Source: Fibrobacter succinogenes | GTDB taxonomy: Bacteria > Fibrobacterota > Fibrobacteria > Fibrobacterales > Fibrobacteraceae | Assembly (NCBI GenBank): GCA_902756345.1 | Contig: CACVQR010000001.1 | Coordinates: 310,001 to 374,000 of the forward strand | DNA length: 64,000 bases | Direction: 5' to 3' | Part shown: positions 26,394-29,507 of the stretch, one piece after another | How the letters are laid out: every line of letters begins with the position of its first letter | Numbering within the stretch: the stretch's first letter is position 1 | Position numbers and translations under genes: made by a program | Notes under the pieces: generated by a model | Databases searched by the model: none | Told to the model about the DNA's origin: nothing | The model's input: the letters and a program-made list of their open reading frames with translations, nothing else

Positions 26394-26744
26394 TCAATCG
26401 TCGTGAGAGGTAATGTTTTCCCGTTTTTCGCGGCGCTTGCGGGCGCGACATTCTTCAAGGGTTTCGCCGAGGCCTGCGAGCAGTTCTGCGGCCAGGGGCA
26501 CATCCCCTGCGGCGAGTAGCTCTTTTTGCGGGCGGGGGAGTTTCTTGATGCGCGCCTCCAGACGCAGCGCCTCTTCGTGGGAGGAAAGCTCGAATTTTCG
26601 CAGAATGCACTGCGGCGGGAATGCCTTGGTAAACTTCGCTCCCTTGCCGGATTTATGTTGTTCAAAACGAGCTTCTACATCCACAGCATACCCCGTATAA
26701 ATGCGGTTGCCCGCACAACGGAGCATGTACACGAAGTGCGACAT
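26394..26744 (-). CDS. GIY-YIG domain protein (UPF0213-like)
   Basis: 116 residues. HFVYMLRCAGNRIYTGYAVD gives the two YxxxL/xYTGY motifs, followed by VEARFEQHKSGKGAKFT with the catalytic Arg and a conserved Glu near residue 62. The fold is that of small GIY-YIG nucleases; biological substrate unknown. The start overlaps the nhaA stop as TAATG. The tail is charged and rich in Arg/Lys. Confidence 0.92.
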   Translation of the reverse strand: MSHFVYMLRCAGNRIYTGYAVDVEARFEQHKSGKGAKFTKAFPPQCILRKFELSSHEEALRLEARIKKLPRPQKELLAAGDVPLAAELLAGLGETLEECRARKRREKRENITSHDD

Positions 26745-28090
26745 TACGATTCTTCGTGATGCGCCTTCGACACGAGGTTCATGTAGATGGTGCCAAGGAT
26801 TGCGGCACAGAAGCTACCCAAGAGAATACCGAGCTTCGCGGAATCCTGACGGTCGCCCACCTCGAAGGCGAGGTTCGCCACAAACAGGGCCATGGTAAAG
26901 CCGATACCGGCAAGCATACCGCCGCCCCACAAAATCTTCCAGCTGTAGCTCGGCTTCACCGACACGCCAATCTTTACGGCAAGCAGGCTGAACAGGAAAA
27001 TGCCTATCGGCTTACCCAGAATCAAGGCCAAGGCCACCGCACCCATCACAGGCACTTCCACGCCGCCCAGCTTGATTTCGACACCCGCGTTGCTGAGCGC
27101 GAACAGCGGCATGATAAAGAAATTCACCCACGGAACGAGCGGCTTGAAGAAGCGTTCCTGCATCGAAATACTTTCGCGGGCACCGCGCTTCAAAAGCGTA
27201 AACACCTCGTACTGTTCGTTGCGGTCCTTGGCTTCGCCCGAAAGAGCACCACCCACGCTGCCAGCGAAATGGGCGAGCTTGCCCTTCGCAAGCACAGGCT
27301 TTGCCGGCACCGAGAGTCCAAGTAGCACGCCCGCAATAGTCGGGTGCACGCCACTCTTCACAAAGAACGCCCACACCGCAATGCCAATCACGCCATGCAA
27401 CAGCAAGTTGCGCACGCCAATTCTAAACATCACGTTGATCAAGGCGAGCAAGGCAAAACCCGTACCGAGCGCAACAAAGTTCACTCCGTCGCCGCTCGGG
27501 TAACCAATCGCAATCACGAGAATTGCACCGATATCGTCGGCGATAGCCAGAGTCAAAATCATCACGCGGAGTGCGTGGGGCACCTTTTTGCCAAGGATAG
27601 CCATGCAACCCACCACAAACGCAATATCGGTCGCCGTCGGGACACCCCAACCATGAGCCGCACTATGTTCGCCATGCGGGCAAAGCAGCAAGTAAATCAA
27701 AGCCGGGAACAACATACCGCCAGCAGCCGCGATAATCGGGAGGCTTGCCGCCTTCGGGTTCCTGAGTTCGCCATAGGTCATTTCGCCCTTGACTTCAAGC
27801 CCGATATTGAAGAAGAATATCGTCATCATGGCGTCGTTAATGAGCCAATGCAAATCGGCCGAACCGACCCAACTGCCAATCGTCAAGGCAAACGGCATGT
27901 GCCAAACATGATGGTAAGATTCAGGACTGACATTCGCCCAGATCAGGGCCGCAATCGTCATGATAATCAAAACGATGCCACCGGTCGTTTCCACCTTCAT
28001 CAACCGTTCCATCGGCGTGATGATCTTGCGGATGGGGGTTTCCGGGAACAAATCTTCAATCTTGTCGCTGCTCGTTACTTTTGCCGACAT
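26744..28090 (-). CDS. nhaA: Na+/H+ antiporter NhaA
   Basis: 448 residues, somewhat longer than the roughly 390 of E. coli NhaA because of an N-terminal tail and a cytoplasmic insertion near residue 280. Twelve membrane segments. The ion-binding aspartates are in TATDIAFVVG and AIADDIGAILVIA, and the N-terminal FFFNIGLEVKGEM is typical. It exports Na+ in exchange for protons and controls pH and sodium. Upstream lies the inverted-repeat array at 28221-28515. Confidence 0.96.
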   Translation of the reverse strand: MSAKVTSSDKIEDLFPETPIRKIITPMERLMKVETTGGIVLIIMTIAALIWANVSPESYHHVWHMPFALTIGSWVGSADLHWLINDAMMTIFFFNIGLEVKGEMTYGELRNPKAASLPIIAAAGGMLFPALIYLLLCPHGEHSAAHGWGVPTATDIAFVVGCMAILGKKVPHALRVMILTLAIADDIGAILVIAIGYPSGDGVNFVALGTGFALLALINVMFRIGVRNLLLHGVIGIAVWAFFVKSGVHPTIAGVLLGLSVPAKPVLAKGKLAHFAGSVGGALSGEAKDRNEQYEVFTLLKRGARESISMQERFFKPLVPWVNFFIMPLFALSNAGVEIKLGGVEVPVMGAVALALILGKPIGIFLFSLLAVKIGVSVKPSYSWKILWGGGMLAGIGFTMALFVANLAFEVGDRQDSAKLGILLGSFCAAILGTIYMNLVSKAHHEES

Positions 28091-28220: not shown

Positions 28221-28515
28221 GTACAGGCCAAACAGCGCCGAAAACCGATTCTAGCCTGTACAAAGCCCCCGAAAAAGCATTGTGTTTGTCTCTAAAACAG
28301 CCTCTGTACAGGCTAGAAATAAAGAGAATCCTCGCTTAGCCTGTACCACGCCGCATAAAAGCACAATTTTTTCTTCAAAAGTGCACTTTGGTACAGGCTA
28401 AACCGATAAAAGTACCACATTTGGCCTGTACAACATCAAAAAAATCAGATTTTTTTTCTTAAAAATCGGCTTGCGTACAGGCCAATTATCAAAGTCACCC
28501 ACGCCTAGCCCGTAC
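28221..28515. repeat. Regular array of eight alternating inverted 10-mers, 85-bp period, covarying arms
   Basis: GTACAGGCYA occurs at 28221, 28306, 28391 and 28475; its reverse complement TRGCCTGTAC (last copy TAGCCCGTAC) at 28252, 28337, 28422 and 28506. Both series step by 85, 85 and 84 bases. Between them lie non-repeated segments of 21 and 43-44 bases. Across the longer gaps the arms pair perfectly and differ from unit to unit: TTCTAGCCTGTACA/TGTACAGGCTAGAA (28249-28262 with 28305-28318), TTAGCCTGTACCA/TGGTACAGGCTAA (28336-28348 with 28389-28401), TTGGCCTGTAC/GTACAGGCCAA (28421-28431 with 28475-28485). The rest of the 526-base gap (28091-28616) shows only the palindrome at 28155 and, near 28585, a likely promoter for the DUF58 gene. 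No cas gene, transposase or integrase is near. Confidence 0.9.
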
Positions 28516-28616: not shown

Positions 28617-29507
28617 ATGCTAGATAAAGAAGTTTTAAAGACCGTGAGCCGCATTGAACTTAGCGTTCGCGGCACGCTCGACACCGTGATGACCGGTGCC
28701 TACCACAGTTCCTTCAAGGGGAACGGTATGGAATTCAGCGAGGTTCGCGAATACATGCCGGGCGACGACGTGCGTACCATTGACTGGAACGTGACGGCGC
28801 GTACCGGCACGCCGTACGTGAAAAAGTTTATCGAAGAGCGCGAGATGACCATGCTTTTGATGGTCGACGCTTCCAGCAGCTCGGAATTCGGTTCGGGCAA
28901 GCAGATGAAGGGCGAGGTCATGGCGACTTTAACCGCTTTGCTCGCATTTGCCGCCATCAAGAACAACGATAAGGTCGGCCTGCTCATCTACACCGACCAG
29001 GTCGAACTGTTCATCCCGCCGGAGAAAGGTCGCAAGCACGTGCTGCGGCTCATCCGCGAAATCCTTTACTTCAAGCCGCAGCACCACGGCACGAACACGC
29101 AGGTGGCGCTCGAGTATGCCGGCAAGATTCTGAATCGTCGTGCCGTCGTCGTGGTGATGAGCGACTTCCTGGACGAAGGTTTCGAGAACGCATTCAAGAT
29201 TCTCCGTAAGCGCCACGACGTGCTTGCGGTCTCTGTCGTTGACCCGCGCGAAATGGAACTCCCGCCCGCGGGCCTCGTAGAACTTGAAGATCCCGAAACC
29301 GGAGAAACACTCCTCATTGATACCGGCGATGCGACTTTCCGCGAAGCATTCGCCCGCGAGGCAAAACGCCAGGGCAAGGCGACCAAGGAACTGTTCCAGC
29401 GCATGTCCATCGATTTCGTGCGCATCGAGACTCACGACGACTTCAAGGAAACCGTCGCCCCGCTCATTGAGCATTTTAGGCGTAGGGCCAAGCAGAACCG
29501 TTCGTGA
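28617..29507 (+). CDS. DUF58 domain protein (MoxR-associated type)
   Basis: 296 residues. The family core GNGMEFSEVREYMPGDDVRTIDWNVTART (positions 37-65 by eye, key residues R44, Y46, G49, D50, D51, D55, W56) is followed by a von Willebrand A-like half with LLMVDASSSSEFGSG (DxSxS metal site) and VVVVMSDFLDEGFE. Such proteins usually sit with a MoxR AAA+ ATPase and Bat proteins; no moxR is in this window, but two Bat-like TPR genes lie at 36648-38107. Function unknown, probably assembly or maturation of envelope complexes. Confidence 0.92.
   Translation: MLDKEVLKTVSRIELSVRGTLDTVMTGAYHSSFKGNGMEFSEVREYMPGDDVRTIDWNVTARTGTPYVKKFIEEREMTMLLMVDASSSSEFGSGKQMKGEVMATLTALLAFAAIKNNDKVGLLIYTDQVELFIPPEKGRKHVLRLIREILYFKPQHHGTNTQVALEYAGKILNRRAVVVVMSDFLDEGFENAFKILRKRHDVLAVSVVDPREMELPPAGLVELEDPETGETLLIDTGDATFREAFAREAKRQGKATKELFQRMSIDFVRIETHDDFKETVAPLIEHFRRRAKQNRS

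Follow-up and report, generated by a model that had tools for sequence, protein, structure and literature searches.

The window, a stretch of 64,000 nucleotides from the Fibrobacter succinogenes genome referred to here as G000, carries an array of short alternating inverted repeats in the intergenic space between an nhaA-like antiporter gene and a DUF58/VWA gene. A sequence-only reading of this DNA had reported alternating arms at steps of 85, 85 and 84 bases between nhaA and a DUF58 gene. The array was found to be real, with eight arms of which the last had one mismatch (GTACGGGCTA), and the flanks were identified as Na_H_antiport_1 and DUF58/VWA genes. The features of the locus were as follows:

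26744..28090, minus strand: nhaA-like Na+/H+ antiporter gene (Na_H_antiport_1), flank of the array
28221..28515, unstranded: solo array with four dyads in helical phase, its cognate gene being elsewhere in the genome
28221..28261, unstranded: dyad 1, GTACAGGCCA-N21-TAGCCTGTAC
28262..28305, unstranded: inter-dyad segment 1, 44 bp
28306..28346, unstranded: dyad 2, GTACAGGCTA-N21-TAGCCTGTAC
28347..28390, unstranded: inter-dyad segment 2, 44 bp
28391..28431, unstranded: dyad 3, GTACAGGCTA-N21-TGGCCTGTAC
28432..28474, unstranded: inter-dyad segment 3, 43 bp
28475..28515, unstranded: dyad 4, GTACAGGCCA-N21-TAGCCCGTAC, right arm with one mismatch
28617..29507, plus strand: DUF58/VWA gene, flank of the array

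The array (28221-28515) consisted of four 41-bp dyads of the form GTACAGGCYA-N21-TRGCCTGTAC, with dyad starts 85, 85 and 84 bp apart. The arms alternated in orientation (+/-) and started at 28221, 28252, 28306, 28337, 28391, 28422, 28475 and 28506, which gave arm start steps of 31, 54, 31, 54, 31, 53 and 31 bp. The motif TTTGTATATTCTT was found just upstream of the DUF58/VWA gene and was kept in G071 and G005, and therefore the window array lies upstream of a probable DUF58/VWA promoter of which TTTGTATATTCTT would be a part.

Chance as the origin of the window array is ruled out by half-site counts and by genome-wide dyad counts. Near-matches to the half-site numbered 22 in the window against 7.3 expected (maximum of 16 in 100 shuffles), and the whole genome contained 27 dyads at ≤3 mismatches compared to 0 for a reversed-pattern control. 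The dyads listed were grouped in eight arrays of 3-4 dyads each: the window array, C1:106339-106634, one on contig C2, one on C4, three on C6 and one on C7. The arm-to-arm distance inside the dyads was 31 bp (30 bp in one) and the dyad-to-dyad step was 74, 84-86 or 96 bp. The half-site logo of the genome was GTACAGGCYAAA, with a weak A/T preference at -10 and near the dyad centre. The 21-bp dyad interiors were not conserved palindromes, and their identity between different arrays averaged 8.2 of 21 positions (6.8 when shuffled). Several arrays were located at the 3' ends of PFK, GAPDH, rpiA and glgB genes, and no shared function was found among the genes that flank the eight arrays. The 41-bp dyad with its 21-bp interior is a better unit than the pair of arms across the 44-bp gap, because the 31-bp arm step is almost invariant and the inter-dyad gap shifts by whole helical turns (33, 44 and 55 bp).

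The spacing of dyads was quantised far beyond this genome. In 54 well-formed arrays, whose detection imposed no spacing values, all 148 dyad-to-dyad distances fell within 62-65, 72-76, 83-86, 93-96, 104-107 or 115-117 bp, which is 6-11 helical turns. The best period was 10.5-10.6 bp with R = 0.88 (86 distinct arm/period values after collapsing repeats), and the largest R among 5000 random sets was 0.42. Solo arrays in two other species also had whole-turn steps (63, 74, 95, 128, 136, 158 and 168 bp). Site spacing is thus that of a helically phased protein-binding array. Base composition followed the same rhythm. In the GTACAGG set, A+T content oscillated with a period of 10.3-10.4 bp in phase with the dyad centre (r = 0.89, reached by none of 2000 shuffles), with peaks at 0, 10, 31, 42 and 53 bp from the centre. 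The oscillation was present in each of the eight arrays of the genome and continued to about 75 bp on the outer side of the end dyads, and lone dyads in other species showed a similar pattern. The phase recurred when 43 arm families were taken together (r = 0.92, period 10.5 bp, no shuffle as high). By analogy with the E. coli gyrase motif, which spans 130 bp with a 10.75-bp GC periodicity and offers a precedent for periodicity in wrapped DNA (PMC6379681), an A+T periodicity locked to the dyads would be the mark of protein-wrapped DNA.

Perfect complementarity of the arms across the long gaps was confirmed over 14, 13 and 11 nt. The covariation of these arms, from which the sequence-only reading had proposed three long-stem RNA or cruciform structures, is real in the window array but did not appear as a property of the family when 29 dyads and 21 inter-dyad gaps of the genome were compared with shuffled pairs. 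Across the 21 long gaps, arm positions 1-10 agreed slightly less often than in shuffled pairs, position 9 matching at 0.33 compared to 0.50, and compensatory arm changes were not above shuffled pairs either across gaps or within dyads of this genome. A search of 16 related array loci with the Rfam 15 covariance models gave no match except one cobalamin riboswitch. The proposed long-stem structures were therefore not supported; RNA stems with covarying arms were rejected on the genome-wide shuffles and the lack of an Rfam match, and the covariation inside the window array is a local accident. The riboswitch (L258, 1958-2145) is near a linked array at a Treponema locus and is probably unrelated to it.

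A candidate partner for the arrays was encountered at the mbl locus of the same genome, where a 279-aa gene starts 36 bp from an array copy. This gene (G000:C1:105467-106303), taken as the cognate gene of the window array, is on the same contig at a distance of about 230 kb, and it was absent from the mbl locus in four sisters. Inverted 8-mers in alternation, whatever their sequence, were then looked for in 400 kb each of G069, G042 and G003; only G042, another Fibrobacter species, yielded new arrays, which were arranged as in G000 but with TTACGGACTAAA arms. Among these three genomes only G042 had a homologue of the 279-aa protein, and its gene sits between two TTACGGACTAAA arrays. Homologues in G089, G071, G020, G041 and G067 adjoined arrays with arms of their own, including TTACATACTAAA, GTACCTATAAA, TGGGTACCAA, TGGGGATTAAA, GGGGCGTATAAA, TGGCTGACTAAA, GGCATATAA and others. 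Beyond nhaA, the four genomes G041, G067, G020 and G071 had an TTACATACT array and then the partner gene, and DUF58 came next in G041 and G067; in G000 the nhaA-DUF58 space holds the GTACAGG array and no partner gene. Because the other four genomes have array and gene there, the window array is solo and occupies one of the sites that the system uses.

At least 581 relatives of the partner protein were found among GTDB genomes. The best 80, which were studied, belonged to Fibrobacter, to Treponema and further spirochaetes, to Lachnospiraceae and Clostridiaceae, and to a few other groups. A linked array, defined as ≥4 alternating arms within 900 bp upstream or 700 bp downstream of the gene, was found for 64 of the 80 homologues with one mismatch allowed, compared to 2 of 56 control windows placed 2-3 kb away. 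With exact 8-mers, ≥4 alternating arms within 1.3 kb were present at 40 of the 80 loci and at 0 of 80 shuffles. The 16 homologues without an array by the linkage test included several at a contig end, and most others belonged to Lachnospiraceae. In 54 linked arrays, 45 were upstream of the gene and 9 downstream. Separately, 11 of 74 loci (L153, L155, L161, L274 and others) had a terminator-like hairpin with a T-run in the roughly 170 bp before the partner gene, on the gene side of a putative promoter, compared to 1 in control stretches; this suggests attenuation at some partner genes. A relative of the partner with 32% identity was also noted on a 4.2-kb contig from human faeces labelled Bacteriophage sp. 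(MT839528.1:380-1120).

The 279-aa protein had no match in Pfam or NCBIfam, and among 13 family members no Pfam family scored below E = 0.04; no relative was found among the sequences of solved structures. The only PADLOC match was to PDC-S68/S69, in which the C-terminal ~115 residues aligned with the end of PDC-S68 (E 2e-22). PDC-S68 is a candidate system protein of about 1,200 aa that shares this C-terminal domain with the partner, but it is much larger and nothing beyond these residues aligns. The motifs SKSE, PDFTCL and WEHFG were invariant in the family. In the predicted structure (pLDDT 84) the N-terminal half forms a helix, a beta-hairpin and a long helix. The best Foldseek hits included MunI, DrdV, Bax1, Hjc and RecU, all of them weak (E>0.05), and no match had E ≤0.001. 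Together, the invariant motifs and these non-significant structural matches suggest that the C-terminal part is a PD-(D/E)XK-type nuclease domain. Recognition of the arms is probably the task of the N-terminal part.

A nuclease-like gene next to constant repeats whose spacers are unique, and the hairpin before some of these genes, would also suit an RNA element, whether a TIGR- or CRISPR-like guide array, a set of stem-loops or type III antitoxin repeats. This is highly improbable given that spacing follows whole turns of DNA, that the arms do not covary, that spacer lengths differ by 10-11 bp within one locus and that no Nop or Cas match was found in the partner family. The search of spacers against phage and plasmid sequences which the sequence-only reading had proposed gave no convincing match for the window array: the best phage match had E = 1, and against plasmids there was one 39-bp match (E = 2e-4). 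On this result a CRISPR or phage origin of the spacers was not favoured for the window array. The exact dyad was found neither in IMG/VR nor in the GTDB r220 contigs, a set that possibly leaves out the records of this genome itself. TIGR-Tas resembles the present arrays in that conserved segments alternate with unique spacers next to a gene whose product may have a nuclease domain, but the spacers of TIGR arrays are usually 9 nt long and reach 12, the repeats are 8-12 nt and the protein has a Nop domain (PMC12045711), whereas gaps here are about 16-21 and about 22-75 nt, phased to DNA and without a Nop match. The arrays are not CRISPR or TIGR-Tas because of the effector, the partner family having no Cas or Nop match, the repeat and spacer sizes and the DNA phasing.

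Arms are specific to each gene lineage and track the N-terminal domain of the protein. Arm similarity rose with N-domain identity (Mantel p = 0.001), a correlation of small size that in part reflects the tree; the partial correlation with arms was 0.16 for the N-domain given the C-domain and -0.01 for the C-domain given the N-domain. In the protein tree, arm types followed clades. Proteins of members of the genus were identical to those in Fibrobacter records, and on this ground the genus is taken to be Fibrobacter. The nearest homologue, from a buffalo-rumen Fibrobacter MAG (L225), was 57% identical and was located at the mbl locus with the same two neighbour genes, and its array had GGCAGACYAAA-type arms in every dyad at 85, 84 and 85 bp. 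All arms of the mbl-locus array have changed together between G000 and L225.

Dispersed solo arrays carried the arms of the resident gene in the three lineages tested. G042 contained 36 dyads of the form TTACGGACTAAA-N16-TTTAGTCCGTAA at many places (control 0), none of which occurred in G000. Dyads of TTACATACT were dispersed in G067 and G041; in G071 and G020 they were confined to the vicinity of the gene, and in G000, G003 and G005 there were none. Solo arrays favoured convergent intergenic sites (12 of 25, compared to 22 of 116; p = 0.004) and avoided divergent ones (2 of 25, compared to 35 of 116; p = 0.02), the window array being one of the two divergent cases. This combination argues against plain operators and resembles REP elements. 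If the protein were a repressor or activator and the arrays the operators of its regulon, the position of 45 of the 54 linked arrays upstream of the gene, the window array between two promoters and a 12-bp half-site would all be expected. Such a regulator is nevertheless quite unlikely, since the site preference of the solo arrays is the opposite one, genes flanking the arrays have no common function and 3-8 dyads per array exceed ordinary operators. A regulon read from the flanking genes was rejected on the same lack of a common function.

Comparison with sister genomes showed that arms are conserved above the rest of the array. Between orthologous arrays of G000 and G005, 1 of 96 arm-core positions had changed, compared to 27 of 260 other array positions (p = 0.001), and for G020 the changes were 2 of 32 and 30 of 94 (p = 0.002); G094 showed the same trend of less changed arms, which was not significant. 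Together with the quantised spacing in 54 arrays and the phase-locked A+T content, this strongly supports the other suggestion of the sequence-only reading, that a protein could bind one face of the DNA. Whole dyads were gained or lost between species: the glgB array of G005 was short of exactly one dyad, the FKBP-M23 array of G020 was also short of one, and G071 had a single dyad where G000 has four. In addition, arrays were missing from the prfB, rpiA, priA and mbl loci of G071. Intergenic regions at the sister loci were simply different, and no clean empty site that had a target duplication was seen there. Absence from the mbl locus may represent loss because gene and array there are common to G000 and the distant species L225. 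GTACAGG-type arrays were kept by G005 and G094 without any partner homologue and by G020 with only paralogues of other arms, so either the arrays outlast their cognate gene or something else uses them.

Neutral repeats in decay, with no function, would account for presence and absence between sister species and for relic dyads in genomes without the gene. This explanation is disfavoured and has very little probability, as arms are conserved above spacers, phasing is exact in three phyla and arms change in concert in linked and solo arrays.

Some other features were observed at these loci. At the GAPDH locus of G071 (L134, 3220-5065), about 1.8 kb of extra DNA absent from G000 lies by a single relic dyad. 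Between prfB and PFK (L068, L070 and L072), several sisters have a short repeat starting GACACGAAWGTGTCATCCTGAGC after prfB, which seems to be one more of the intergenic repeats that are dispersed in the genus. The prfB homologues of several species (G008, G055, G049, G078, G050 and others) have one in-frame TAG within the open frame. In G093 (C38; L137, 2113-2341), a 94-bp unit with GCACAGGCCTA...TCTAGCCTGTGC arms occurs three times in tandem, in near-identical copies, beside a gene read from its sequence as a putative tyrosine recombinase, and G086 has a single similar unit. These repeats have 3-4 mismatches to the dyad and were rejected as dyads, since they look like coincidence.

The closest analogue is the RAYT-REPIN system, which is unrelated. 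In RAYT-REPIN a low-copy nuclease-type gene is linked to short inverted repeats that occur as dispersed intergenic doublets of lineage-specific sequence (PMC8049555), with a variable spacer between conserved inverted arms. Here, too, the gene is linked to inverted doublets that occur throughout the genome and have one sequence specific to the lineage. It differs in that the partner protein is unrelated, dyads are whole helical turns apart, spacers are unrelated between arrays and several paralogues with different arms often occur in one genome. The cognate Y1 (HUH) transposase family, PF01797, was absent from G000, G042 and G067 and was present once in G041 and once in G005. A RAYT-REPIN-like selfish pair, in which the nuclease-fold protein copies or moves arrays as non-autonomous satellites and the arms are recognition sites for mobilisation, would fit the one cognate gene that in each of three lineages goes with many arrays dispersed over the genome, the four loci without arrays in G071, the gain and loss of whole dyads and the convergent preference. 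We consider it unlikely: dispersed arrays share arms and not spacers, unlike copies of one element; neither target duplications nor clean empty sites were seen; three of the genomes have no Y1/RAYT gene; and ordinary recombination explains duplication within arrays.

BIME-2 elements, as strong gyrase sites of E. coli, are similar in that inverted elements alternate in intergenic arrays close to the ends of genes, with a 10-bp G+C periodicity of the wrapped-DNA type (PMC6379681). The present arrays also have a periodicity round a symmetric centre close to the 10.75 bp of gyrase sites (best periods 10.3-10.6 bp). They differ from BIME-2 in their strict species-specific arms, dedicated linked gene and whole-turn spacing; BIME-2 consists of REP palindromes without a dedicated gene, and here interiors are not conserved palindromes and the gene is linked at 64 of 80 loci. 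That the arrays bind gyrase and manage supercoils beside expressed genes would be in line with the gathering of gyrase downstream of active genes (PMC6379681) and with the arrays at the 3' ends of PFK, GAPDH, rpiA and glgB. It is very improbable, as the arms have 10-12 nearly invariant bases which change wholesale between species, and arrays occur in genomes with the cognate gene and not in 800 kb of G003 and G069, both without it.

On the layout, phasing, gene-array linkage, lineage-specific arms and dispersal, all computed directly, the favoured reading (probability of about 0.72) is that the array is a docking site where a cognate nuclease-fold protein binds and wraps DNA. Its cellular role may be that of a selfish element, of a nuclease held in check or of chromosome architecture. 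Each 41-bp dyad would present two inverted half-sites (GTACAGGCYAAA), three helical turns apart, to be held by a symmetric, presumably dimeric, protein. As the dyads are whole turns apart (eight in the window array), neighbouring complexes would face one way, and the phased A+T-rich minor grooves would let the DNA bend round the assembly into a wrapped nucleoprotein array. The 279-residue protein, whose gene is 36 bp away from another array of the genome, is the likeliest binder; we infer arm binding, dimerisation, wrapping and autoregulation for it. The gene-adjacent array would be its 'home' array, usually upstream and perhaps autoregulatory, and the window array and six others would be dispersed solo arrays, satellites which in genomic behaviour would be to this gene as a REPIN is to a RAYT.

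In the open-access literature no description of this array layout was found, and the earlier statement that no described element was known to have it held within that scope. The arrays and their genes apparently form an undescribed two-part bacterial system, made of a nuclease-like gene and phased dyad arrays with a site sequence of its own for each gene. The whole-turn dyad spacing and gene-specific site sequence suggest a protein that wraps DNA at chosen places of the chromosome. More tentatively, and at less than even odds, these may be members of a widespread class of elements, in which a nuclease-fold DNA-wrapping protein of fast-changing specificity has its own phased arrays, the arms of which change together at linked and dispersed sites. 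Such elements would act as a chromatin-like system, selfish or defensive, with the nuclease held on or aimed by the arrays. Found in 54 arrays that span 43 arm sequences and three phyla, the whole-turn rule seems to be a direct trace of protein-DNA wrapping in the genome. The correspondence of one gene lineage to one arm sequence over 43 arm families is a natural data set for a DNA-recognition code, and it raises the question of what makes bacteria retain a nuclease-like protein along with the arrays that it probably binds at many chromosomal sites.
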